The notes beneath the pieces were generated by a model. That model did no database searches. It worked only from the letters and a program-made list of their open reading frames with translations, and had not been told where the DNA came from. Shown here piece after piece: positions 2,678 to 31,856 of a stretch of 64,000 nucleotides of DNA. The position numbers and the translations under genes are program-made. The DNA comes from Amphibalanus amphitrite (Eukaryota > Arthropoda > Thecostraca > Balanomorpha > Balanidae). The stretch is taken from the NCBI RefSeq assembly GCF_019059575.1, contig NW_024881611.1, positions 931,001-995,000 on the forward strand, given 5' to 3'. How positions within the stretch are numbered: position 1 is the first letter of the stretch; every line of letters starts with the position of its first letter.

Positions 2678-5600
2678 ATGGCCGTCCGTCTGCCGCCGCT
2701 GGTGACGCTCCTGCTACTGCTGGTGCTCGAGTCTGGTGTCAGAGCCGCCCGACTGGACCTGTTTGATCGCAAGCAGGGCATCCGGATGGGCGTGCCCTCC
2801 AACGGCTGTGATGACGGCAAGGTAAGCGACTAGCGAGGGAAGGTTTCCACCGGCAGGATATAAAAATCGGGATAGTAGGAGTACATTGTCTTCGTAGGCG
2901 GCGGAACGGGGGGGGGGGGGCACCGTGCCCCCCTTTGATTTTGGCATTTTAACATTAGCCCTATGGGCGTTGCATGGAAAGAATGGGACCAAAAGTCAGC
3001 AGTGTCCCCCCCCCCCTTAATTGAAGGTGTTCCGCCGCCACTGACTGTCCTAAGTTACTATCTAACTTGATTTCCCTGAATTCATTTTTTTGTGAATATC
3101 ATTGTCTATGCTGGATTTTATTTTTAGGTTCTACGTTTCATAAGAAAACATTTCATGTATTATTTATTGCGTTAAGATTTTCATATTTCTCTCAGGGGCA
3201 GACTGTCGCGGCGTTCAGCATACATTCTATATATGCTGCGTCCTTCACTGCGCGAACGCACGTATACGTGTCACGTCACCTCCCATCCCGGCTGACCGGT
3301 GTCGGCGGCCCGTGTAATGGCGTCCGGCCGGCGGCCTTCGCGCCGTCACTCCTCTCCGCACCGGGCGTGTCGGCCGCCGGAGACGACCTTTAGCGGGGCT
3401 CGTCACCGGACGACATGACCCGGGACGCGGGGGAGGGGCGCCGGAATCGCGCACTTTGACCCGGGACGCGGGGGCGCCGGAATTGCGCACTCGGACCGCT
3501 GCTGTGGCTGCAGTAAAGGAAACCGCCGCTGATTGGGGGGATGAAGGCACGTCGTCGTTCAGCGTGCATTGCTGATGAGGTCCGGCCGCTGTTCCAGACG
3601 GGACTGAGCGTCGACTACAATGGCTCAGCCGTCGAGTACACGTGCTTTCTGCCCAAGTCCAAGCGCTGGAGGGTGGGGCTGAACGTCGTGGAACCGGTTC
3701 AACATTGCGACGATTTACCAGATGACTACTATGTAAGTCTCCCACCCCATTTTGTTCATGGTGCTTCACGGTGCTTCATGTCCATGCATATGACAATCAG
3801 CTAACCCTGTCTTCCGACAAAATAGGACTCAGAAGATTTAAGATATAGCATCTAATATTTCGTATTTGCACCAATTTTAACACATGCGATGAACTAGGTA
3901 TTTAACGCTCATATTTGCAATCGTGATGATTTCGTTATAAATAACCCATAGCATAGAAAAATGATCGTAAGCTCACTATTTTGAAAATCTAATCATAACC
4001 TAAAGTGAATGAATATATTTCGGAAGCGTTCCTTCTCCAGTTCGAAAATTCGTTCATTTAGCCTAAGTTTACATTTTTCAAAGAAAGTGAGCGGACAGTT
4101 ATTTTTCCACGCTATTCACTCATGCTGCTCATTTTAGCACTTCGTCACCGTATTATAGATAAATAACCCATGCTTCTTTTTGTCAACAGCCTCAGCACTA
4201 CTGTATGAACCAATCTCTGGTGTACAAGGATACTATTCCAACTTAGTAAGTACTAAGAAGGTACCTTTGATTATTTATTTCAACGCCGTTTACAATTTTC
4301 AACTGGCCCTTTTATTCTATTTCTAACTCTTTCCAAGTTTTACAAAAGGTCATGTTTTGACTGTATCTTTATAATCTGCATTTTATTAAGTTTCATTCAG
4401 TTTCTTGTGCCGAAATGGCTGAATCGATTACGTGATAATTGCGAAGTGTTTTGTAGTGAATGTTTTTTTACTGTGAAAAAATTTCTTATTTGTTTTTAAA
4501 CAATTCTTATTCATTTTACAGCGGAGACCACCGTCCTCTTTGGGGGATATTTGGGGAATACCAGTATCTGCCGCCTCAGCGTTGGCTTCACAACGTCGAG
4601 GTAAATATTTTAACCAAAATATCGTCATGGTTGAATATGGACACACTTGACACACCGCCTGAGGCGGCCGCCGTGAGTGACCGAGAGAGAGCGGTGCCGG
4701 GCCGACCGAGGCCCGTGCCGGCGGGCCGCTCCCACGCTCTGCTACGACCGGCTGGACAGCTGATCACCGGCGCTGCGCAGACACCCGCCGCCCATCAGCG
4801 GCCGCCCAGCCGGACCCGCCGGAGCGCCGGTGAGCGGCCGCCTGACCCACGGTCGCGGTCGGCTCGGTGCGGAGCTGTGGGTGACCCTACACCGGGTGGC
4901 GCTCGGGGCCGGCGCGGCGGACAGAAGCGACGCCGTCCCCGCCGCAAGAGGGGAGGCAGGGACTGGCGACGGCACGGCGACATCACAGCCAACTGCCTGC
5001 TGTTCGGACAGCTCAATGTCCAATCACTAAAGCCAAAGATTGCCGACCTCCGGATTGACTTGACCGATTACCAGTATGATGTATTAGCGCTGTGTGAAAC
5101 CTGGCTAACACCTAGTGTACCAAATAGGCTCCTCAATATCGATGGCTACCGGCTGTACAGGTGTGACCGTTCCAACACACGTGGACTAGCCAAGGGACGT
5201 GGAGGAGTTGCCCTGCTTAATCGAGACTCGTACCATGTCGAGGTTTTGAAAACTCCTGCGACCGGTGTGCCAAACTCGAATCTTGAAACGTTATGGGCCA
5301 AAGTATGCGTTGGGAAGTGTCGTGGTATGATTTATGCATCGGTGTACCGCGTGCCATCAAACACTTCAGCCCAGGTCACTGTAGATTTAGAGGACCTAGA
5401 GTATCAGTTGCAGCATATGTTAACTACCTATACTGGGGCTACGGTAGTAATCGCTGGCGATTTAAACTGCTGCCTGTCAAGGTGCGCGGCTGACTCTCCA
5501 GGACAGCGACTCCACCGGCTTCTGACAACGTACGGACTGACCATCGGTAACACCCGGCATCCGACCTACCGACCGGCCGGCTCGCTGCTGGATGTAGTAG

Positions 5601-8600
5601 CGGTCAGCCGTCCCGAGCAGCTGGTGCGCGCCGGTGTGACCCGCTGTCACTACGGCACCCCGCACGACTACACCCGTGTCGTGTTACGGTGCGCCGGCAG
5701 GACCAGACCGACCTGCCCGGTCGTGTGGCGCCGACGTCTGGGCCGGATCGATGGCGACAGCTTCAACCGGCAGCTCTACAATGTCGACTGGAGCCCGGTT
5801 TTCCGGACACAGCAGACGGAGGAGAAGTGGGAGGCGTTCTGTGGTATCTTCCTCCGCCAGTTGGACACAGTAGCGCCTGTTGCAAAGGTGCAGCAACGAG
5901 CGCCCGGGAGCCTGTCTGTCTCAGCACCCACCAGAGACCTGATGGCCCGTCGGAGACAGGCCCTGCGCCCTGGCGGTGACCGAGAAGACTACAAGGAGCT
6001 GAACCGCCTGTGCCGCGCGGCTGTTCGGAAAGACCAGCAGAACCACATTCAGCAGGAGCTGGCCAAGGCGGGACCCAGTAAAGTCTGGAGGGTACTTCGG
6101 CCCATTATTGGCAACAAGAAGGAAGTGTCGGTGCCCAATGCCACGCCGGATGCACTAAACGACTACTACGTAAACATCGGGCCAAGCACAGCTGCAAGCG
6201 TCCCCCAGCCTGCAACGCCAGTGCCGATCAGGCTGCCGCGTGTCACCACCAGCGGGTTCAGACCGCAGCCGATTGACATCGAGTCACTGGGCCAGCTCCT
6301 GATGCACATGAAGCCGTCCAATTCAACTGGTATTGACGGGGTTAGTGTCAGCATGTTCCAAAAGTTCTACTGGGGCATGGGTCACGTCCTCCTGGATATC
6401 CTGAACTCCAGCCTCACCACCAACAGCGTGCCCAGCCCGTGGAAACACGCAATGGTAACACCGATTCCCAAAGGACAGGGACCATCTGAGCCAGCAAACA
6501 CCCGGCCGATTTCCATCCTACCGGCAGTGGCAAAAGTTGTCGAACGAGTCGTACAGCGCCAGCTGGTTCAGTACATGGAGGTGAACCGGCTGTTGTCTGC
6601 CACCCAGCACGGCTACCGTCGCGGACACAGCACCGAAACGGCACTCGGTGTTATATCAGACCGTGTGCTGGAAGCGATGGATGCTGGAGAGGTATCGATA
6701 CTGGTGCTATTAGACCTGTCAAAATGCTTTGATGTGGTGCCGCACCGCAGGCTGTTGGACAAACTCGCGCTGTACGGGGTGGAAACGGAGTGGTTTGCGG
6801 ACTACCTCAGCGGCCACACGCAGCAAGTGCAGATGCCCAGCGGCGACGGTGGATACGTACGATCCGGTGTGAAGCCGAACACGATCGGCGTGTACCAGGG
6901 CGGATCACTTAGCTGCACATTGTATACGGTGTTTGCAAATGAAATGTATCTGTATCTACCTGCCAATGTCACGATGGTCCAGTTCGCTGACGACACCCAG
7001 CTCCTTGTAAGCGGCAAAAAGCGCGACTTGCCACAGGTGATAGAACGAATGGAACAGGCTCTTGAGTGTTTGTACCAATGGTTCTGTACCAACTCAATGA
7101 AGCTTAATGCAGCTAAGACGCAAGTTGTCGTGCTTGGAACTCCTGCTATGCTCCGAGGACTGCCGTCTGTCACACTAAATGCGATGGGTACTGTGATTCC
7201 AGATTCTAGAGTCGTCAAAAACTTAGGAGTGATTATGGACAACCATTTGAAGTTCAATGATCATGTCGATCATATCACTGCTAAATGTACCGGCGTCCTT
7301 ATCGGTCTGATGCATGCCAAACATGTTATACCAAAGGTATCTCTGTCAGTGATAGTAGAAGCGCTTGTGAACTCACTCATCAGGTACTGCATATCAGTGT
7401 ACGGCACGTGTGGAGTCACTCAGCTTCATCGCGTGCAGAGACTTTTAAACTTTGGTGCTCGTGTCATTAGCGGTCGTCGTAAATACCACCATATTAGCGA
7501 TGTACTCCGCGACCTGCAGTGGCTGAATGCACCTAGCCTTGTTAAGTACCACCGGATCTGTGTGGTGCACACGCTCGCTACGACGGGCAAGCCCGAAGTT
7601 CTCGCAGAAACTATCGGTCGCACCGTGCACCACTCGTACCAGACACGTGCTGCGGGCAACCACATGTTGCCGAGAATTCGCACTGAAGCTGGTCGACAGC
7701 GGCTCTGCTACGACACTGTGCGCGAGTATGACCGCTTACCGTTCGATGTCACCGCTCGCAACTTTCGACACCAGCTCAAAAAGCACATTTTTATGGAGCA
7801 GTCTGCGATGTCTAGTTAGTTTCAGTTGAGCACTGTGTCTTGAACCTTGTGTATTTACATATTTGACGTATTGCAATGAAAAGCCATGTTCCATGGATTT
7901 GCTGTGAATAAAGTATCTGTATCTGTATCTGTATCTGGACTTGAGGGCAAATTGAAATTATATGTGTCAATACTGTACTATTAAACGTTTTTTTTTTTTG
8001 CCATGCCTGTAAGCTTTTTGTATTGTATTGTATTGTCTACCTTTTTCTGAGGAGCAAATCACGTTTTCAGCACGGCTCTGTGATAATGCTGTACCATCCG
8101 TGTGCCGACTACCGGGAGGTCGACAGGCTAAAGGGCCTTGTGCGGGGCTGCATCCGAAAACACATCATTACACCGTACCCCAAGCTTTCGCTGCTCCGGG
8201 TGAGTTTCTGGAACGAAGGGAATAAGTGGAATTGTAATTTTGGGTCCGATGACTCGGTGCAGTTTTTTTTCTTTTCGCCGCACTTACAAAGCTGATTGTT
8301 CCCAGTTGTTAGAGTCACTTTTGAAATTATGATGCGATGATAGGAGGGAGAAGCTAGTCGTGAAAGTTGGATATACTTGCCTTTCACGTGGGCTTTTTTT
8401 TACGTTTTACGTAAACTTATACTCGTTTAATTTAGTTCGGCGTGAATTAGCGATCAGATGTTCCAGTATCGTGCTGGAACAGGTGTTCTGGTATCGGTGG
8501 AATATAGATTGGGCAGTGCTGAAATCCGCCGATAGTGGCGGGATGATTAGACTGAAATTTAGTGGCCAGTTGGGTAACGTTTGGTGATAGTTATATTTTT

Positions 8601-21500: not shown

Positions 21501-24500
21501 CAAGATGGCTGAGTAGTTAGGATGCTCTTCTATTGTAAGATTTCTGGAGTTTGTTTGACGGGTATTTGACAAAATCACTGACTATTTTATGCGGTGGTTT
21601 CTTAGCTGCATGATACGCAATATTTATGAAGAAAGGCGACGGTAATGTCAACCATCTTACAATCCTTATCTTATTCTAGATTTCCTTTAGTGGTGACTGG
21701 TGCACATAATTATCGTTCCTATTCATAATCACTTGTTTCAGTTGGCCTTTACGTGTGCATCTTGAAATATGTATTTTGAGATACCTCTAAGACTAGTTTA
21801 ATTACGAATAGCTTATAAAACTCTAGCCCAGCGAGCATCGTTGCGTTGATATCAGTTAACGTCATGACATTGTTCACAAAATCTACTGGAGTCGACTATT
21901 TTTCGTCATGGCCCGGGCGTTTGAACGTTTCACTTTTGTGCGTGATGGTTCACGGTGACATTTTTGCCGATATTGCACTGTGCGCGCTATGACGACAGGT
22001 TCCCACCCGGCCAGCGTGTAATCTCGCCCCATAATACGCTTATTAACTTTTGACTGCACCCTCCGAGCAACGGTTACGTAAAATATAGCGAGGGGACACT
22101 TTCGCTTATGTCATACGAGCTGATTTAATGGCAGGGACCGTCAAAAACGAGAAGGAAAATAAATTGTAAATGCGCTGGAACACAATGAGCTCAACACCAG
22201 CGCGACCCAAACCCGAACTAACGAGCTGAGTTGCGTTGTGTATCTCAAATTGCCGAGCGTTCCCCGCGCACACGTCGACATGGTCATAGAATACTGAAGT
22301 GCTCAGTGCGCCCCACTCGCACGATGCACGCGCTGATGTCATTGAGCTGACGGTCGGGTTACCTGTCTGTGTTCGCAGATACGGTGAAGCTGCCCTCGGA
22401 GAAGTTTGTCAAGCAGGACGGCGGGCCCATCGAGATGACGAACGACCGCAAACAGTTCCTCCTGAGCTCGGCGGAAGAGTTGTACGCCGACATCAGGTTA
22501 GGACACTAGGGGAGAGAGTTCAGGAGGGGTGACAGGTCGTACCTAGAAGGTGATCACTGTTCAAGTCACGACTCTCGGAAGTGAGGTTAGGCTTGTGAGG
22601 AACTGAGCTCTCGGAGGTTAGGTGATGGGGAAGGTCAGAATAGGATGACAAATCAGAGGACGTTCATTGCGGTGCCTTTTCGACACGTCTAAGACAGGCA
22701 ACTGGGTCAAGTGGATCCTGAAGCTTTTGGCATTGCCGCCGATCTGTAAGTTTCTCCACATATTTACGTGTTTAGGTATTCATGGGTTCACTCATTGTTC
22801 CAGGGATAAGAACTTCAACGCGGTTGGTCCGGCCCTCAGTAGGAAGGCGAAGCAGATCTCTGCTCAGTACGAGGAGCGACATTCTCAGTCGGTCAGTGAG
22901 ATGAAGAACTTTGTCAAGAACGTGCTGCCGACCATCAAAGCCGCCAAGGAGTCACTCGGACTGCGTGAGTAATGAGTTTATTGACAATATCGAAGTGAAC
23001 AATGTGGATTGTTTCTGGAAGGCCTCTACATGCCCCACTGCAGATAATTTTAATGACTCAATATTATATGGTGTTATTACGTGATGTGATTGTTTTCATC
23101 CACTGGGCCACCGATCTCGTAGCTATTCGCTAGTAAAGGCTATGCTTGTTAATCTTTTATTTTTTTATATGTAAATGCTGTTTTATGTAAATAAGATTAA
23201 TGTTGGCTCGTCATCACTAAACTGACCCGTCTGCCGACCCCCCCCCCCCCCTCCCGCAGACACGTCGATCGCCGAGCTGATCAAGGAGCGCACCGACAGC
23301 GAGTCATTCCTGGAGGCGCTGCAGACCGAACAGGAGATGATGAACGCCATCGACACAGACCGGGCGCACCCGCACATCGAGCAGCTCATCGCCAAAAAGG
23401 CCGACCTCACTCGGGTGGGTGACGGGGTGTGCAACGGCGCCGGGCGTGGAACTGATAGGCAGTTGTTTATGTTGTTTTCTGTGGAGGGGAAAATGTGCTT
23501 TGGCTGGTTTGAACTGTCTGGGCTATTTTTTTTTCTTGAAATATTATTTGAGATAAATGTGCTTGTGCAGTGTGCACATGAAGCTGAGGTGACACGGATA
23601 TTCAGAAATTGAAGACCTTTCACCAGTTTTACTTCTTACTGCTTATCGGGGCTTCTGTGATTTCGGGGCTTGGGCTCGGTAACTTGGGGTCTGCGCCCAT
23701 AATATTTATCCACTTTGTCGGTCTGACTCGCTCTTTTGACTGCGCAGGTACTGCGGTTGATCTGTCTGCAATCGGCCTGCAACTCTGGCCTGAAGCCGCG
23801 CCTGATGGATCAGTACCGACGCGACCTGCTCCAGACCTACGGCTTCCAGCACGCGCTGACCCTGAACAACCTGGAGCGGGCGGGCCTGCTGCGCACGCAG
23901 GGACGCACCACCTACAGCGCTCTGCGGCGGCAGCTGAAACTTACCGTGGATGATGTGAACGAACAGGCGCCCACCGATATATCCTACACGTTCAGCGGGT
24001 GAGGAAGCGGCCGGAACCGAGGTGGGGGGGGGGGGGGGGGAGAGGGGAGGCGGACGAGACGTGACTGGGGCAGGGTGGGACGAGGGAACGGGCAGTGCGA
24101 CGGGCGGGTGATGCAGACAGAATGTATTGTTTAAAGGGTTGAGTCAGTTGCCGCCTTGTTATTTTCGATTCACCGGCAGTGTTTTGATTCGATGTTTACC
24201 ACTATTGGAGATCACCACCGTCAGGGCGCCATAATAGTGCAGTGTTACCGATAATGGGGCATTGTTGTCGGGTGGTAATTGTCCAGTCACGGACGGGGTG
24301 GCGCAGTGGCACGCTGGCCGGCCGGAAATGAACCGTTACCAACGAGCCCGTCTGCCGGGTCTGTCTGGAGGTACCCGACCAGACCCGACCAGCGGCAGGA
24401 TCATGAAGCCCGGAACAGAAAGCGTGACCGTTTATCATATCACCGATTGTGTAACTTTAAACTTAGAACGACAATCAACATTTCATCGAACCAGTAACCG

Positions 24501-27500
24501 TTTCGACTGGGTATGGTCTTAAAGTACTGGTTGTCGTTTCGATTATTATTTTTATTGCAATGTAGGGTTGCTTCAGCTTTGGCGTAAACTTTTTTTTCAA
24601 CACCCGCACGTTGATAATTTGGCGTACTGTACAGTAATGCTGCCTCGCGACGCTAGGCAAGGGTGAACCGTAGGTAGACCTGAAGTTTTTCACAACACCT
24701 TACACACAATATCACAAAACACAATAGGCTGCTGGTTAGAGTTGTCCGAGCAGAATGTGCGCCGGTCGGTGCGACTACACAGGGCCCGAGCGGGTGACGA
24801 TCGCAGGCTCCTCTCCCGTGACTGGATGACTAGACGTGGGTCGAGCCGGAGCGGTGTTTCGAGCCGGCCAGCTCAAAGAACAGCACGTATGCCTTTCCGC
24901 TGTTGACGTTTCTCTGGTCCATCACGTGGACCCGCGAGTCGTTGTACTCGTACCACTCTGCCGTGTACGGGTGTCGGCAGTAAGCGGTGTAATGTCCTGA
25001 GAGCAGCGTGCCAGAGTGGTTCGCCACGCCGTATAGGCTGTACCGGCAGGGCGTCTGTCCGGCCGAATAGGGCGACAGGTCCAGGTCGTTCACCGAAAAG
25101 TCGACAGTGGTGTTCAGCTTCCCGCGGAACCTCTCCTGCGGCGAGAACCGCTTCAGGTGGACCACCAAGATACGAGGGAACTTCTGGATCGAGAGGCTCC
25201 TGGTGCACTTTTGGTGCTTCTGGCACTTTGAGCAGGTCGGTTTTTCGTCGCCATCGAGCACCTCCTCTTGGGTGAACAGGTCAAAACAGGCCTGTAGGCG
25301 CACCTGGCCACTTCGTGACGGGATTGGCAGACTCAGATCCCAGAACGGGTCGAAGGTAACCGATGCGTGGCCACATACCGTGCACTGCAGGGTAGCCTTG
25401 AGCTGGCCCACGAACAGGTCAACAAACTTGGAGTTTTCCAGGCGCAAGAAACGTTTCCAGGCCTCCATTGACTTTTGACTGGCGCTCAGTGAGTCGTCGA
25501 TGTCGGTCGTGATCGGCTTTGGCCGGCTCGTCACCCGGTTCACGTCCTCGTGAAGTCCCTGCATTAGATATCTGAGGAATTCCTGCGCGTCCTGCTGCTG
25601 GGAGCCCATGAAGCGCGGCGCGAGCCGTTGGATCATCGACTTGAGTGGTGCGGTGGTGAGCACCCGCTCCGTTTCGTCCGAGGATGTCCACATGTCGCGT
25701 ATCATGAATGAACACATTCATGTCGCATGAATGTGTTCATGAGGGACCCCTTCGTAGCGGCGGCAGGCATGCTGGCATCTGAGGAGCGTCCATCGCGCAG
25801 GATGTAATCGTGGAGAGCGCGTGTGTTGCTCAGGCACTGGACGACTGTGTTCAGGAAGCAGGTGTTGCCCATGTTCCTGAGGCCGGTGAGACCGAGCGGT
25901 CTGCCGTCAGATTCACTGCCAGTCCCGCCGCCGTCTTCGCTGGGGTTGCCGGGCAATGAGTGGTGAGACAGTCTGGTGTTGGGCGGTGCAGAGGCCTCCT
26001 CCGACGGGAGTGCCAGCGGCTCGTCAGCTAAGAACTCGGGTGAGGCCTGGCACTCGGGTGGGGTCTGTTTTGCTGAGGCTCGGCCGGTCGTCGCAGACGG
26101 AGGAGGCGAAGGCCGGGTGCGCATCCCTGTCACTTCTGGTGGTGGCTGCTGTCGGCGGTCTGCCCTCGCCCGGTCTGTGGCGGCTGTGGCGAGAACCGCG
26201 GCGGCGTTGCCTCGCACAACGGCGATCGAGAGTCGCTGTAATAGCCATTCGGTCTCGCGTCGTTCGCCGGTGCGGGTGGTGATAAGCTGGCCCAGCTCGC
26301 GGATGAATTTTGAGGTGGCGGGGCCGAGGACTCCGGAGGTCTCTACTGCGATGGGCACGAACTTGAAGCGGGAGCTGATTTCTGAATAGTGGCGCCGTTT
26401 TCTGTCTTCTGCGGCCCGAGCGGCAGCACCAGGCTCTAGGGCGGTCTGAATCAGCACAGTGTCGGCAAATGTGTCTGCGCATGTGGCATCCCATGTCAAA
26501 CACATGCCTCCGCTGTACGGAAACAGCGTTAGGCCATCAGGTCGCTTGCCATCACCCCGGTCGAGGCCGACTGGCTACAATATGGAGGGGATGCCTGCGC
26601 TTGCCAGTCCGCGCCTCACCACGTCATTCAGTTGGGCGTGACCGGCGCTCTTCACGCAGGAGAGCCCGTGGTGGCCGAGCTGATCCACTTGACGTCCGCA
26701 CAGACGGCACCGGTGCTGCTCGCAGACTGTGGCTCCGAGGCGGAGAGCCACTGCCACCCGCACCGACTCCTCGTCCAGGTGTAGGCCGAGACTCGGCACC
26801 GGCACAGCCTGCAGCCAGGCGGCCGTGTGTGGCTGACTGGCGGCGACCAGGCGTGCCCGGTGCAGCTGGTTGGCGGAGTTGACCATCTTATCGCGAATCG
26901 CAGTGGCTGATAGGGTGTCCCAGGCCCGCTGGCTGCTGACAGCTGATGCGGGCGGCAGTTGTTCGGTCCCTGTCACCTCAGAAAACCGGTGAATTGCTGT
27001 CTGCAGGGTTGGTGGCACACCGCTGGCCGGAAGCAGCCCCGGAGAGATGCTGCGGAGGAGTGGCAGAGCAGCGTGCAGAGAAGATATGTAGCACGGCAGT
27101 GCCAGGTCCTCGACAGAGCGAACTCCGAGACCTCCCAGTCTGAATGGCAGTTTTGCCTGCTCCCACAGCTGGTCATTGATATTTACGTTTGTGATATCGA
27201 CCAGAGTTTCTCGCACCAGCTCGTCCACCAGCTTGAGCGCGGGCACCACCTTGTACAGGGGCGCTGAGCGCAGCAGGTACTGGAGGCGAGGCGCTGACGC
27301 GTAGTGGACGAGAAAGAAAAGTCCAGTGTGTCGGTCCAGGTGCGTCAGTCGGGTGCATAGGCGTCCGATGAGTTCGGCGGCACCATTGGCCGCTGTGTTG
27401 AGGCTGGCGTCCTGCAGTGGTGCGCCCAGCAGAGTGACGCTGTGGAGAGGGATTTCTGTTATCTCCGGCAGGATACTGCGAATGCTGTCGACCGCTGCGT

Positions 27501-30500
27501 TGCGAGCTATCTGGGGCGCCGCGTCGATGATGGCTACCTCGCACTTCGCCGGGTTCAGCTGCAGACCGAGTTCTGTCAGAGCCTTGGCGAGTGAGTGGAG
27601 GTCAGACTGGACGACATCAGCCGGGCCGGCGATCGTGGCGTCGTCCAAGTACCACACATTCAAAGGCGATCTTATGGCTCGGGCGCATGCGTCGACTCCC
27701 AGTGCGAAGGCGGCAGGTCCAAGAGGATCCCCCTGCTGGACTCCGGTCGCTGACAGTACCGTCTGGTCCCCGATGTGCAGCGGTGTTGGGAGGTGGTAGG
27801 CTTGATAGGCCAGCGGGTAGACCTCCGGGCAGCGCTCGTGAATCCTGGCCAAGATGACGTCCCGTCGGATGGTGTTAAAAGCGTTACGCACGTCGATTTT
27901 GACCATAACTCGCGGCGTGTCTGAGCTGGTGGAGTCGGAGCTGATGAATTCCCGCACTGCGTGCACTGCGGCCTCGCATCCCAGCGGGGTGCCGACCCCG
28001 AGCTGGGTGGGGCGTAGCTCCGGACCGGTAATGTCAGCGATGTGTCTCGCGGCGATGCGTCCTGGCAGGCGGCGGAACAGGCTTCCAACGGCTATCGGGC
28101 GCAGACCACCGTCCTTCTTTCTCAGAGCGCAGAGTGATGCTCCGAAAAGAGCATCGCGACCACACTCTGGCACGAGGCCGCGCAGAACCAGGTTGGTGAG
28201 GGCCGTCAGGGAGGAGAGGAGGCGCCGGCCGGACTCGGCGGTCTCTCGGGAGAGCAGCTGTCGTAGGTGTAATGGCCGGATGCCGTCGAGACCAGCTGAC
28301 GAGCCTGGTGGCATGCTGAAGATGGCGGCCCGCACCTGCTCCTCCGTGACAGTGAGCGGGGGAGGGTCGGAGGCCGCGGGAGGTGGCGGTAGGCTCTGGT
28401 CGAGTGGTGCGAGCGGGTGTTTCAGTCGGAGCGCGGCGATGACCTCGGCACTAGGGTCGACGAAGGTGTCGCTGGAGGTCAGGAGACGGAGACCGGCCCG
28501 GATATCCCCGTCGGCGCACTTAGCATGAACTCGACGAGCAAGGGAGTCAAGAGTCGTCCGTGGAGTAGGGGCGCGCCTCTCCACCGTCCGCGAGGGCGGA
28601 GCGGCAGAGTCTAGCCCGGCCACCTGACGTCGTATGTGTGACGTCAGTGTTGGGCCCCGTTCCCCGCTATTGGTCGAGTCGGGTGTGCGTAGAGCAACAA
28701 AGGCAAACGACAGAAACTTCCACCACGATGATGATGAGGTTGGACTGTTGACTGCCTCATTCACCACTTCTGACAGGGAATCGGCGACTAAAGACCGCGC
28801 AGCTTTCGGAATCCGGGCGATAACCTTCGTGCTGGCGCGGAGTTTCGACAAACCTGCCGCGATCCCGCAGAGTGGGGCTTCTGATGTCTGGGTGGGCGGC
28901 TCCAGTGTGGCAGCCGGGCGGCCAAGGCACGGCTGACAATGCCACACGGAGAGAGCTCGCGCCTGTTGGATGGTCAGCTTGGCGCAGGATGTGTGCCAGC
29001 GCTGGCCGCAGAGGCTGCAGGTGATTGCGGCCTTCCTTGAACTCCGGCTTCTGCATGCCTGGCAGCTGAGCGAGGCAGTTAGCTGGGTGGTGGCCGGTGG
29101 GCGGCTGCGTCCGATTGCTGTTTGTCGTTGATGAGCATTTTCGTTAGTTGCTTGATCCCTCCTTCTCTTGGGCTTTTTCTTTCTCGACGCGGTGACCCAA
29201 TTTCCGTCTCTGGGGTCAAAGCCCTCGATTGGTGAATCAGAATCATCAGTATCCATTTATGCATCTTATCTTTTCCCAAAGCGGGATTTTCTTTTGATAG
29301 TTGACACGAGACACAAATGGAAAAATCAAAGGGCAAAACCTTTCCAGACTCGATGCGTTTTTTGGAAATTAGGTCAAAAATTGACAATATTTAGGCGTTT
29401 ATACTGTGTAAAACGATGATTAAAAAACAATGAAAATGTGACCAAAATATTCTACGTTAGAATAGGAACATTTTTATATACATCACACGGCGTAGAAAAT
29501 AAGTAATTACGTTACAGCGAACTAGAAAGCGGGGCATCTGCGGGCACGTCCGAACCCTTCGAGTGTTTTCAAGAGCAAAATTATTTTTAGTATTTACATT
29601 ATTATTTTTTAGTATTACACTAGGGTTACCCGCGTGCTCCGCAACGCAAAGGGGGGATTTTTTGACCCGTGGGTATTGGGTTGGTCTGTGTCGATTTGGT
29701 TGGTAGATATCCATTTCGTTCGATTGCTTTTTTACGGCCAAGCATTTTGTAAGAAAACAAAAAGATACATCGCATCGAGGTGCCCGTGTCGTATTATCAT
29801 GCGTTCTACTTTAGAATGATTCGAAAACTGGCGTGAAGTCTTTTGAGGGCCATCGATGAATTTCGCTAAAAATGACAATGTAATGGTTTGGAACATTTAC
29901 ATTTTTTAAGAATACTGTTGCTCATCATGCAAAAATGATGAGTGTATCTTGGACAAAATTGAATGCTCTTTCCAACGATGCCATTTTCAATTGCCAAACG
30001 TATCAGGTTACGCAGCAAAACCCGTGTAATTAATAAAGTGGCACATCATCGACAAACACCATTTTCTCTAGCGATTTGTACCACCTTGCCGTCGATCAAT
30101 TAGCTATTCACAATTTTCCCATGAGAGGCGGTACATTTCTCTTGCCAATAGGCGTTGTTTCAACTCGCTCCGTCTGACGGTCACCTAAAAATAAAATCAA
30201 TTCCAAAATTCGTCAAAAACCGCAGTTTTTCAACAAAAGTGCCCTCCCCGGTGCACGTGGCGCGTGCCATCCACTGCTTCGCACAACATTCGATAGCCCG
30301 TTCAATTCTGTACACGATGCTGTTTTCCCCGTGCCGGTCGGACCCCTGGTCACCGAGATATTGCACGGGAACTGGACCCGTGTCGGCCAAAATAAGCCGT
30401 TTTCGCCCGATTTCGCACGCCGATTTATACATGTAAAGTCTATGACGCGAATTTGCACTTTTTGAGCACGCGCCACGCGCTCCCTATCAATCCGATCGAG

Positions 30501-31856
30501 CTGAGACCCCTCAAAGGCACGTCGCGCATCCTTGATCTATAAGTTGTGCAAATTTCACCGGGCTAGGTGCAACGGTCTGGCCTGTAGTCCACGCAAAGCA
30601 GCACCAAGTCGGGACCTCGGTAACGGACAGACGCACCCTCCTCAAATAGTAATATAGATTATTATGCACCCTGCACGTGCGCACGTGCAGGGTGCCGCTT
30701 CAATATCTCGAAAACGGCCGGGCCGATTGCACCCAAATTTTGCACACCGCTCTAGACGGGCGAATAGGGTGCCGTGCACGTCAGTTTTTAGCACACCCAC
30801 TCCGGTCTGCACGTGCAAGGCTCATCCTCTCGTTTGGCGGGTGGCGTTTTTGCGGCGTTACAGAGGTGCTTGCTCAAACAACCTGCGGTCCTATTAAACA
30901 AATGAGAGCAAGAAATCCACTAAGTGCGATTTCTTAAAATTATTTTTAGTAGTACAAGTATTTGTTTTATAAAATTCGTTCGTTCTGCTCACTGAAGCAC
31001 ATATGTATTCCTAGTGCGCCTGTCAACTTGTTTGCTAAACGACATCTAAACGCAGGATATTCAGCCGGAAGATTAGGAAGACACCGGTTACAAAAAACAA
31101 AATACTACTCTAACGAATTATTGAACACAAACCTACGGTTACCAGCTAAGCCTATCGAACAAACGACTTCATATCCCCCGTATCGCAGCTCGATTTCACC
31201 TCACACACCCGCGTCCCGCTGCAGGTACGCGCCGCTGTCGGTGCGGCTGGCTCAGCTGCTGGCGCGGCCCGGCTGGCGCTCAGTGTCCGAGGCCCTGGCG
31301 CTGCTGCCCGGCCCGACCCTGATGGAGGAGCAGCCGGCGCCGGCGGCCGCACGCAATCGGCGCGACACTGGCCCGCTGGGACTGAGCGCCGACGACGCGC
31401 GCCTCACCCTGGTCGTGTTCCTTGGAGGAGCGACGTTCGCGGAGGTGGCCGCGCTGCGCTTCCTCTCCAGCCAGGAGGACGGTGAGGAGGGCTCGGGAAG
31501 GGTGAATCGAGAGAACGGCATGGCTGGTTTTAAAAAGAGTAACCTTGTCAGCTGGGTATGCAATTAATGCGAATGGTTGGCACATCACATGTGGGATCTT
31601 TTAGCATTCGCTTTGTAGCCTGTTGCCTTTGATGACAGTGTCTTTTGTATATCCATGTCAACTAGCTTACAAGGCATCGTTTGTCACCAACACATTTCGG
31701 ATAAAGTGTGTCTACTTAGCTGTCTGCAAACTGACACTGCCCCATCCTTCTCCCTCAGCGCCCACCGAGTACGTGATAGCGACCACCAAGATGATCAACG
31801 GCAACTCCCTGATCAGTTCGCTGTCAGAGGAGCTGGTACCGGTGGGCGGCGCGTAG
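12531..31856 (+). CDS. VPS33A: VPS33A, SM-family subunit of HOPS/CORVET
   Basis: Eleven coding exons: 12531-12638, 13012-13205, 13674-13863, 14148-14267, 14607-14778, 22379-22496, 22804-22964, 23260-23414, 23748-23998, 31225-31481, 31759-31856. Phases agree and give 607 residues (human 596). Signature blocks: [111 protein letters not shown]-type junction, [31 protein letters not shown]. The family clamps SNARE bundles and binds VPS16 during late-endosome/lysosome fusion. Exon 3 either ends at a GC donor (AAG|GCACGT), giving exact family alignment, or at 13878, adding five residues. Intron 5 holds an antisense cuticle gene and intron 9 an antisense LINE-USP element. VPS16 lies convergent downstream. 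Confidence 0.94.
14757..14864 (+). repeat. Duplicated VPS33A exon 5 end with its splice donor
   Basis: The 34 bases GAGGTGTTCGGCATCCACAA...GTGCCGCT, which span the last coding bases of exon 5 and the 5' splice site, occur at 14757-14790 and again at 14831-14864. The first copy has the donor ACA|GTGAGT and the second ACA|GTAGGT, 74 bases downstream. Use of the second donor would shift the frame. Confidence 0.9.
16244..18129 (-). CDS. RR-type chitin-binding cuticle protein, three exons
   Basis: Exons, all phase 0: 18129-18001, 17732-17598, 17359-16244; 459 residues. Exon 1 encodes a signal peptide ([16 protein letters not shown]) and a short Pro-rich lead. Exon 2 ([12 protein letters not shown]...[13 protein letters not shown]) joined to exon 3 ([17 protein letters not shown]) forms a complete Rebers-Riddiford chitin-binding domain. 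The remaining ~350 residues are Pro/Gly/Arg/Gln-rich low complexity with RREGPQ-type repeats, giving a much longer tail than most RR proteins. It is expected to be an exported structural protein of the exoskeleton. A splice acceptor (TCTAG) directly abuts the ATG, implying a 5' UTR intron. It lies antisense inside VPS33A intron 5. Confidence 0.9.
18851..18883 (-). promoter_or_regulatory. TATA box and initiator of the cuticle protein gene
   Basis: On the minus strand TATAAAT occupies 18883-18877 and an arthropod-like initiator CACAGTG has its A at 18851, 32 bases downstream. That is the classic spacing. The leader would then be about 720 bases in genomic DNA, consistent with the 5' UTR intron whose acceptor abuts the start codon at 18129. 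Confidence 0.6.
18884..20338. other. Noncoding part of VPS33A intron 5
   Basis: I see no supported gene. A G+C-rich island at about 19405-19640 is open in one frame for 76 codons, but its translation (Arg/Pro-rich) has no recognisable motif. The rest is A+T-rich sequence. Confidence 0.4.
20339..20813. mobile_element. piggyBac-like MITE with TTAA target duplication
   Basis: Perfect terminal inverted repeats AGGGACCCTCCCACCTT (20343 onward) and AAGGTGGGAGGGTCCCT (ending at 20809) bound about 467 bases of noncoding DNA. TTAA flanks both ends (20339-20342 and 20810-20813), the target duplication characteristic of piggyBac. No transposase is present, so it is non-autonomous. Confidence 0.8.
20814..22378. 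other. Remainder of VPS33A intron 5
   Basis: No gene, RNA or clear repeat structure is recognised between the MITE and exon 6. Confidence 0.4.
24022..24040 (+). repeat. Poly-G run after VPS33A exon 9
   Basis: A G homopolymer of about 17 bases lies about 25 bases inside intron 9. A similar C run (about 23240-23252) sits in the polypyrimidine tract of the exon 8 acceptor. Confidence 0.7.
24551..24556 (-). terminator. Poly(A) signal downstream of the LINE-USP frame
   Basis: On the minus strand AATAAA (followed by AATAATAAT) lies about 275 bases after the USP stop codon at 24830. It is the first such signal and would serve as the 3' end of the chimeric element or retrocopy. Confidence 0.4.
24830..25893 (-). 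pseudogene. USP2-like deubiquitinase catalytic domain, intronless, frameshifted
   Basis: A complete ubiquitin-specific protease fold lies on the minus strand. The Cys box [20 protein letters not shown] has its nucleophile codon at 25860-25858. The [22 protein letters not shown] segment follows, then a zinc finger CTVC...CSKC and the His box [11 protein letters not shown] (His codon 24994-24992). NDSRV and a terminal YVLFFEL follow. These blocks match USP2/USP21-type enzymes, which remove ubiquitin from proteins. All catalytic residues are present and no intron interrupts it, unlike ordinary USP genes (family knowledge). The frame is broken at about 25702-25740 by a perfect inverted repeat, consistent with a 23-base insertion. 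Upstream it is in frame with a LINE polyprotein. Alternatives: a captured domain of the LINE, or a processed USP copy joined by template switching. Confidence 0.88.
25708..25740. repeat. Perfect 14-bp inverted repeat breaking the USP frame
   Basis: ATGAACACATTCAT (25708-25721), loop GTCGC, then ATGAATGTGTTCAT (25727-25740). The coding frames on either side differ by two, matching loss of register by a 23-base addition between two nearby TTCATG copies. Confidence 0.9.
25894..26181 (-). other. In-frame linker between LINE endonuclease and USP domain
   Basis: About 96 codons remain open between the usual LINE C-terminus ([14 protein letters not shown]) and the USP Cys box. The translation is Pro/Ser/Glu-rich, low complexity, with no domain I recognise. 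The same frame serves both sides, with no stop codon in this stretch. Confidence 0.75.
26182..29256 (-). mobile_element. RLE-type LINE polyprotein (PHD finger, RT, CCHC, restriction-like endonuclease)
   Basis: On the minus strand a frame opens with ATG at 29256. Residues 65-110 form a PHD-like C4HC3 finger (CQAC...CSLC...HTSC...WHCQPC). The reverse transcriptase follows: [36 protein letters not shown] and YLDDATI (about 27640-27652). Near the C-terminus is a CCHC knuckle ([18 protein letters not shown]). After it comes a restriction-like endonuclease with [13 protein letters not shown] and PIAVETSG blocks. There is no N-terminal APE domain. One in-frame TAG at 26577-26575 (a GAG in related elements, from memory) breaks the frame between CCHC and endonuclease. 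It is antisense within VPS33A intron 9. The frame continues past the normal LINE end into a USP domain. Confidence 0.88.
29257..31224. repeat. Repeat-rich remainder of VPS33A intron 9
   Basis: There are no genes. Around 29620-30660 are degenerate dispersed repeats (for example GTTACCCGCGTGCTCCGCAA). At 30666-30695 lies a 30-base perfect palindrome with two CACGTG cores. It is followed at 30700-30740 by an inverted copy of the ATCGGCCCAGCCGTT-type motif that recurs near 32.2-34.2 kb. Confidence 0.6.

Follow-up and report, generated by a model that had tools for sequence, protein, structure and literature searches.

What a retrotransposon might gain from a deubiquitinase, and how it comes by one, are the questions raised by a locus in the genome of the barnacle Amphibalanus amphitrite. 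The window, i.e., the entire 64,000-nucleotide stretch analyzed here (contig NW_024881611.1, positions 931,001 to 995,000), carries on its minus strand a long interspersed nuclear element (LINE) with a restriction-like endonuclease (RLE), joined to a USP2-like ubiquitin-specific protease (USP) domain. Its relatives form a clade of RLE-type LINEs with a single polyprotein, consisting of an N-terminal zinc finger or cysteine-rich stretch, a reverse transcriptase (RT), and the RLE, followed by a C-terminal slot for a complete USP. This slot has been refilled with different USPs. The preferred explanation, to which a probability of roughly 0.55 is assigned, is that the tethered USP would act as a generic deubiquitinase protecting the element's own protein, the cargo being captured and exchanged by template switching. 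An earlier, sequence-only reading of the window had noticed the junction; it did not see that the window copy is broken, nor that the USP is exchangeable cargo.

Organization of the LINE-USP element

The element was originally placed at 24830..29256 and proved to be longer when its copies were compared. Its 5′ end is complete, with full-length copies starting no more than 1-2 nucleotides (nt) from the same base, while its 3′ end is short by ∼36 nt, 15 of the 19 compared loci extending further. No long direct repeat was found at its ends. Its parts are as follows:

24685..29567, minus strand: whole LINE-USP element, with the ends placed by comparison with other copies
29257..29567, minus strand: 5′ untranslated region (UTR)
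26578..29256, minus strand: first part of the polyprotein frame, 893 amino acids (aa), closed by TAG
28927..29064, minus strand: PHD-like finger, aa 65-110 (PF00628, E = 2e-4)
27529..28122, minus strand: RT core, aa 379-576, with the YLDD motif (PF00078, RVT_1, E = 7.9e-17)
26200..26709, minus strand: CCHC knuckle and RLE, RPDG...WDATC, recognized by eye and from the alignment of relatives
26575..26577, minus strand: in-frame TAG inside the RLE
25888..26199, minus strand: linker between the RLE and the USP
24833..25887, minus strand: USP2-like deubiquitinase domain, in two frames in the window copy
25858..25860, minus strand: codon of the USP catalytic Cys
25708..25740, minus strand: perfect 15-nt inverted repeat (arms 25708-25722 and 25726-25740), the site of a 17-nt insertion
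24992..24994, minus strand: codon of the USP catalytic His
24685..24829, minus strand: 3′ UTR

The minus-strand order of PHD-like finger, RT, CCHC, RLE, linker, and USP stands as first described, whereas the single open frame attributed to the window copy does not, being interrupted by the TAG and a frameshift. The USP2-like domain is indeed devoid of introns; the larger of its parts matches the Pfam UCH domain (E = 1e-51), and its nearest solved structure is that of USP2 (2hd5, E = 2e-94). The PF00628 match is weak in the window, below the Pfam curated cutoff, and exceeds it at the loci L021 and L031 (here and below, L numbers denote genomic loci and P numbers denote database proteins). The RT is recognized in eight relatives with PF00078 E values from 1e-14 to 6e-20, and the only solved relatives of the L017 RT-RLE region at an E value of 0.01 are R2 retrotransposon proteins (PDB 9nl2, E = 5e-8). 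No Pfam model matched the region that we take to comprise the CCHC and RLE motifs; in the alignment, RPDG...WD.TC and most of the CCHC knuckle are invariant across six families. The family displays the following features of RLE-type LINEs (the R2-like group, taken broadly): a LINE RT, CCHC and RLE after the RT, 5′ truncation, a common 3′ end, and no terminal repeats. In a Pfam search of eight full proteins, the Ulp1 domain was absent; their protease is UCH and is C-terminal.

Proteases within polyproteins often process them, so the USP could be imagined to cut at a ubiquitin-like junction, freeing the RT from the RLE or from itself. Such a role appears very improbable, given that the same eight proteins contain no ubiquitin-like domain (Pfam, E up to 0.01) and that many relatives have the RT and RLE and no protease.

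Copy number and mobility

The search covered 807,550,619 bases of the barnacle genome, and the resulting counts are lower bounds. The Pfam UCH model gave at least 111 matches, counted per exon, of which 41 are in open frames of ≥1,100 codons. With the 174-residue L017 RLE as a query, at least 150 matches were obtained; 50 of these 150 are followed by a UCH domain, on the same strand and no more than 3 kb downstream, in 37 cases in one frame with the RLE, as judged by equal open-frame length. The junction of RLE, linker, and USP is therefore not unique in the genome. RVT_1 and UCH are found in one protein at all eight loci examined with Pfam, in each of which the frame stays open across the RT, the RLE, and the whole USP: L017 (1,472 codons), L021 (1,558), L029 (1,594), L030 (1,933), L031 (1,795), L032 (1,430), L033 (1,763), and L034 (1,706).

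The family has recently been mobile. Its common 3′ end is shared by 15 of 19 loci (the window copy, L015, L019, and L027 stop before it). L010, L014, L015, L016, and L023 are 5′-truncated at differing points. The flanks are unlike between loci except for L011-L013, apparently a single locus that the assembly contains more than once. Among seven window-type loci, the USP parts are 99.3-100% identical; those of L014 and L015 are 100.0% identical in different flanks, which indicates recent activity. Candidate target-site duplications at the 3′ ends were seen in L009 (12 nt) and L016 (11 nt), the 5′ side showing 14 and 22 additional nt, respectively; in L015, a match of 10 nt lies 97 nt off and may be due to chance, and at 7 of the 10 loci examined there was no duplication of ≥9 nt. 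Insertion into the single 28S rDNA site typical of R2 proper was not observed: the flanks differ, and the window copy is intronic.

These data dispose of several simpler readings. A chimera unique to the window copy is rejected by the many further copies in the genome, and a processed host USP gene lying beside a LINE by the fact that the USP travels with the ends, flanks, and truncations of the element. An assembly artifact is unlikely because the in-frame fusion of RT and USP recurs in unnamed proteins from other sources (14 of 105 in the first of the database searches described below, and more in the later ones). The named barnacle proteins probably do not count as evidence independent of this genome.

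Near-identical loci were noted on different contigs (C614/C792, C205/C214, and L011-L013), and the assembly may therefore hold uncollapsed haplotypes, which would affect the copy counts. The loci L024 and L026, on contigs C205 and C214, contain a 621-codon open frame with a USP domain, presumably USP20/33-like, and none of the listed RLE matches upstream; this frame is a possible intronless host USP.

Cargo types and other C-terminal tails

Three protein database searches were made, the first drawn partly from the USP sequence and so biased to USPs, and the second and third from the RLE-end sequence only. RVT_1 and UCH occurred together in 14 unnamed proteins out of 105 in the first search; UCH was present in 29 of the best 120 of 172 proteins in the second and in 14 of 82 in the third. 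The end of the RLE could be mapped in 176 proteins, and 64 of these have tails of more than 30 residues, with USPs in 41. Related LINEs thus do not all end at the normal C terminus. An IMG/VR scan with P0001 returned two stretches that fit a pattern, neither of them a relative.

Of the ∼8 USP types, five are named by PDB matches (USP2, USP8, USP16, USP30, and USP35/38) and three less firmly. USP2, USP16, USP35/38, and USP37-like cargo was read in the barnacle genome, and the USP8 type in the named barnacle protein P0032; USP30, a USP10-like type, and one further type come from unnamed database proteins. The USP37-like cargo, with weak PDB matches, is presumably of that type. The P0114 cargo (UCH, E = 4e-39), whose best solved match is a weak one to USP15 (1e-14), is assumed to be USP10-like, and the best PDB matches of the further type are USP8 and USP15.

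The A. amphitrite database proteins P0001, P0002, P0024, P0032, and P0046, named USP2, USP8, or USP38, are LINE polyproteins or pieces of them; in P0046, the USP module lies inside an LCAT Pfam domain. Annotation therefore calls for caution, some barnacle proteins bearing these names being products of retrotransposons.

Some USP-less relatives have tails with short motifs instead, namely, one or both of PWGELFGA and DPELARYL with a YRxxYxEM stretch; in a more general form, these are PWGE(L/I)FGA(R/K)P and YRxxYxEM...DPxxDPELARYL. Carriers include L036, L037, L041-L045, P0026, P0118, P0120, P0135, P0033, P0043, and others. In Pfam searches, three such database tails had at best subthreshold matches and seven genomic tails had none. 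Six other tails are 39-209 residues long, and for the 23 long non-USP tails taken together, the listings name no Pfam domain other than the RT. When 10 of the genomic RLE loci without a listed UCH were read, 3 proved to be USP37-like after all and 7 had short-motif tails. These tails may recruit a host protein instead of a USP.

The variety of the cargo bears on a possible role in trans, in which the USP would act on chromatin near the target, removing ubiquitin from H2A/H2B or silencing factors with the help of the PHD-like finger. USP16, a histone H2A deubiquitinase, is among the cargos, and PHD matches, mostly weak, occur in several families. A role of the ubiquitin pathway in transposition, e.g., in DNA repair, has been proposed in the Ginger paper (PMC2836005). 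Still, this scheme appears unlikely: other cargos are USP8 and USP30, which reside at endosomes and mitochondria, respectively (USP16 being nuclear), the types replace each other, as would suit a generic rather than a substrate-specific role, and the L029 and L030 proteins have no PHD match in Pfam. Protection of the element's own protein by a tethered USP would place no such demand on the cargo type.

Host origin of the cargo

On contig C271, the coding sequence of host USP2 is divided over many exons, and the host USP16 gene is likewise split by introns (C614, with a second copy on C792), whereas the cargo is intronless, which indicates capture from mRNA; spliced host mRNAs are thus the source of the USP2 and USP16 cargo. 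In the case of USP2, this agrees with the capture of a host USP2-like cDNA surmised from the window alone. Five of the seven host USP2 exon stretches compared with the L017 cargo show 91-94% DNA identity, and the other two show 74% and 79%; one stretch, the 79% one, passes the stop codon, so that the start of the element's 3′ UTR may correspond to the end of the last exon of host USP2. At the protein level, the L017 cargo and host USP2 are 87-88% identical. Over 339 codons, limited to those translating to the annotated residue, their synonymous divergence (dS) is 0.54 and their nonsynonymous divergence (dN) is 0.066. In the USP2 tree, the branching order among the host gene and the LINE copies is bushlike and not resolved, and the branch leading to the host gene is very short.

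The L030 cargo is 93% identical to host USP16 in amino acids, with a dS of 0.156 (737 codons), or 0.137 for the 494 positions shared with L034. The L034 cargo is far more distant, with a dS of 0.59 from host USP16 and 0.62 from the L030 cargo. USP16 must therefore have been captured at least twice, once recently. The hypothesis of one capture of all USPs followed by their divergence fits neither the USP types nor, for USP16, the dS values. For the USP37-like type, the genome search returned some split and less similar matches.

Exchange of cargo between RT backbones

The window-type and L021-type elements, with RTs of 43% amino acid identity, share a USP2 module and 3′ UTR from position 25970 onward at ∼95%, so that the last part of the linker (from ∼25970) is also common to this second backbone. 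In the backbone tree (144 rows with ≥380 aa of RT-RLE, FastTree only), all 56 rows with tails longer than 30 residues are confined to three subclades, which comprise 19, 35, and 5 rows; the ten tail states require 32 changes. A quick tree of 33 cargo-bearing rows omitted near-copies (the window, P0001, P0002, L027, P0024, P0029, and P0063) and rows that had too little RT or were not chosen (e.g., P0003-P0007, P0018, P0023, P0032, P0169, P0171, and P0183). In this tree, the eight cargo types need 22 changes, compared to a mean of 21.2 after shuffling, with values as low in 162 of 200 shuffles; the cargo type has no detectable signal on the RT tree. A single clade per cargo type is rejected for USP2 (p = 6e-96), USP38 (7e-59), the USP37-like type (2e-9), and USP16 (9e-4).

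Three junctions appear to retain a stub of an older cargo. L030 is 98.2% identical to L040 over 169 nt and then proceeds into USP16, while L040 continues as USP37-like. L021 retains a USP37-like Cys box (74% identity to L033 over 149 columns), followed by the USP2 module; on the USP2 side, it is 97% identical to that module over 38 nt in the query. In L031, USP35/38 is preceded by a 25-nt stretch that matches the L034 USP16 cargo exactly in its Cys-box region; given its brevity, this stub is no more than suggestive. The changeover from one cargo to the next falls on the Cys-box codons or close to them, and this points to template switching within common sequence as the probable mechanism.

Such rapid turnover of the cargo would fit an arms race, and it could be read in favor of a USP that blocks host ubiquitin signaling, in damage or innate-immune responses, raised by the nucleic acids of the LINE or by nicked DNA, much as viral deubiquitinases block host ubiquitin signaling. 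This seems distinctly unlikely, since, acting in trans, a particle present at the level of a LINE would presumably have to prevail over the plentiful deubiquitinases of the cell. A USP tethered to the RT-RLE protein would act at its own substrate.

Selection on the USP domains

Between different backbones, the pairwise ratios of dN to dS (omega, Nei-Gojobori) for the USP are 0.23 for L017/L021, 0.17 for L029/L032, 0.34 for L029/L033, 0.20 for L033/L032, 0.22 for L033/L035, and 0.26 for L030/L034; for L017/L027, the value of 0.08 rests on 5 changes. Relative to the host genes, omega is 0.12 for L017 and L021, 0.23 for L030, and 0.22 for L034. For the RT and RLE, it is 0.09-0.25 where dS is computable, young pairs excepted. 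The USP is thus under purifying selection and not in the neutral decay that would have spoken against the earlier reading.

The L017/L021 comparison and counts within the USP2 module avoid any contribution of constraint on the host gene. The counts were made for 17 copies, with L012 and L013 dropped as repeats of L011; columns inserted relative to L017 were removed, and with them the window frameshift. Differences fixed between the two backbones number 8 silent and 6 replacing (omega, 0.24; p = 0.008 against neutrality), and shared ones 8 silent and 5 replacing (omega, 0.20). Together (16 silent and 11 replacing), they differ from the singletons (21 silent and 41 replacing; Fisher p = 0.035), from which it follows that the USP was constrained while the element moved. 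After insertion, the constraint seems to be weaker, perhaps absent.

The catalytic boxes were scored by text patterns in 36 rows, including 3 host genes and the second frame of the window copy. Of the 36, 34 show the Cys box, 35 the His box, and 25 the third (Asp/Asn) box. The misses come from the window second frame, the incomplete P0007, P0114, and types with spacing outside the pattern; the third box of the USP38 type and the Cys box of P0114 fall outside the patterns and were read by eye. Two CxxC zinc pairs are present in most rows, P0007 (incomplete) and P0114 being exceptions.

Template switches that fused host USP mRNA to LINEs by chance, leaving the USP as a functionless passenger, were once regarded as the main alternative. 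Broken or truncated tails in some cargos, the common 5′-truncated copies, and weak constraint in some young copies would accord with it. The purifying selection, the length of the open frames (as much as 1,933 codons), and the occupation of the slot by several USP types, with no other Pfam domain listed there, make it hardly credible. Nor does a single chance event fit cargo that is carried by numerous mobile copies, belongs to more than one USP type, and was captured repeatedly.

A tethered deubiquitinase as the proposed protector of the element

In the preferred explanation, capture and exchange would occur by template switching during reverse transcription, favored where the outgoing and incoming cargo have the GN(T/S)C sequence of the Cys box in common. 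The USP would remain tethered to the RT-RLE protein and strip ubiquitin from it or from its RNA-protein particle, so that enough polyprotein could escape degradation by the proteasome, arrive at chromatin, and insert. With the substrate provided by tethering, nearly every USP catalytic domain would suffice, and the interchangeability of USPs whose natural substrates differ would thereby be explained. This interchangeability is the strongest reason for favoring protection by a tethered USP. A broader version, offered more tentatively and at somewhat less than even odds, is that of a dedicated, exchangeable deubiquitinase cassette, with ∼8 USP types in the same slot in three RT subclades, an arms race between host ligases and the element's deubiquitinase, and short-motif tails that recruit a host factor. 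Cargo turnover outpacing RT divergence would be expected from such an arms race.

Several observations weigh against protection by an exchangeable USP. In the genome, 100 of the 150 RLE matches have no listed UCH within 3 kb downstream; 112 of the 176 relatives end within 30 residues past the RLE, although some of these may be cuts at contig ends, and 17 tails hold short motifs rather than a USP. With so many loci and proteins lacking it, the clade as a whole evidently does not need the cargo. The young pair L032/L035 has a USP omega of 0.52. If the captures were separate, part of the USP constraint belongs to the host gene. In the USP2 module, the singletons (omega, 0.61; p = 0.07) are not clearly neutral, and the fixed differences alone do not differ significantly from them (p = 0.13). 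Finally, a tree that holds all LINE USP2 copies together and separate from the host gene is not rejected (p = 0.09), so that a single USP2 capture is compatible with the tree.

Ubiquitin- and SUMO-type proteases are known in few mobile elements, and the reason for their presence has remained open. A slot refilled with several USP types under purifying selection represents a natural experiment; it suggests that the element needs deubiquitination itself rather than action on one substrate and that escape from protein disposal or ubiquitin signaling matters to these LINEs. Matched RT backbones with different or no cargo are available for direct tests. Further, the family illustrates how a retrotransposon can acquire host coding modules repeatedly and in frame.

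The window copy and its surroundings

The window copy is 97.4% identical to the open copy L017 over 4,771 aligned bases. Its TAG corresponds to a sense codon in L017, L027, and P0001. Past this codon, the same frame continues as far as 25705, through the remaining RLE, the linker, and the USP Cys box, before it stops; what remains of the USP (25717-24833) is read in a different frame. The shift inside the USP is accompanied by the 17-nt insertion. The window RLE is 12 nt shorter than that of L017. Several further copies are also broken, each by its own lesions. As a separate observation, the 17-nt insertion creates the perfect inverted repeat at 25708-25740, as though the opposite strand had been copied.

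The element lies antisense within an intron of a Sec1-family host gene, which we take to be VPS33A-like, between the following two exons:

∼23727 to 23998, plus strand: exon of the Sec1-family gene, ending at a GT donor (PF00995, E = 2.5e-12, profile positions 381-463)
31225 to ∼31477, plus strand: next exon of this gene, after an AG acceptor

The second exon is within the frame 30953-31564, which matches PF00995 at profile positions 445-554 (E = 6e-11). Decay of an intronic copy is unremarkable. Elsewhere in the window, a further LINE occupies positions 4460-7816 of the plus strand; it belongs to the apurinic-endonuclease type, with Exo_endo_phos and RVT_1 domains in 1,119 open codons.

Comparison with known systems

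The R2 elements are among the closest known counterparts. The barnacle RT is recognizably R2-like and is likewise followed by CCHC and RLE; in contrast to R2, which occupies one rDNA site and is not known to have C-terminal cargo, the barnacle LINEs show dispersed insertions and do carry such cargo. The host USP2 and USP16 genes stand to them as the source of the cargo; unlike these genes, the cargo lacks introns and continues the reading frame of the LINE. Searches of the open-access literature listed no paper on a LINE with a USP, or on repeated capture or exchange of several USPs.

The NeSL and Utopia LINEs encode an N-terminal Ulp1-like protease (PMC4640811). They resemble the barnacle elements in being RLE-type LINEs with one protein and a protease of the ubiquitin/SUMO-removing kind; however, their protease is Ulp1, N-terminal, and described in nematodes, whereas the barnacle LINEs have at the C terminus a USP (peptidase family C19), which comes in several types and is swapped between elements. 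Another parallel is provided by the Ginger1 transposases, which end in OTU or Ulp1 domains, and by a transposase_11 protein of Trichomonas that includes a peptidase C19 domain (PMC2836005). All of these join a mobile-element enzyme to a C-terminal ubiquitin-related protease, in Trichomonas even one of the same peptidase family, but these are DNA transposons and the barnacle elements are retrotransposons; the passages considered report no multigene capture or exchange. The USP-carrying LINEs therefore stand at the far end of a known class of protease-bearing mobile elements.

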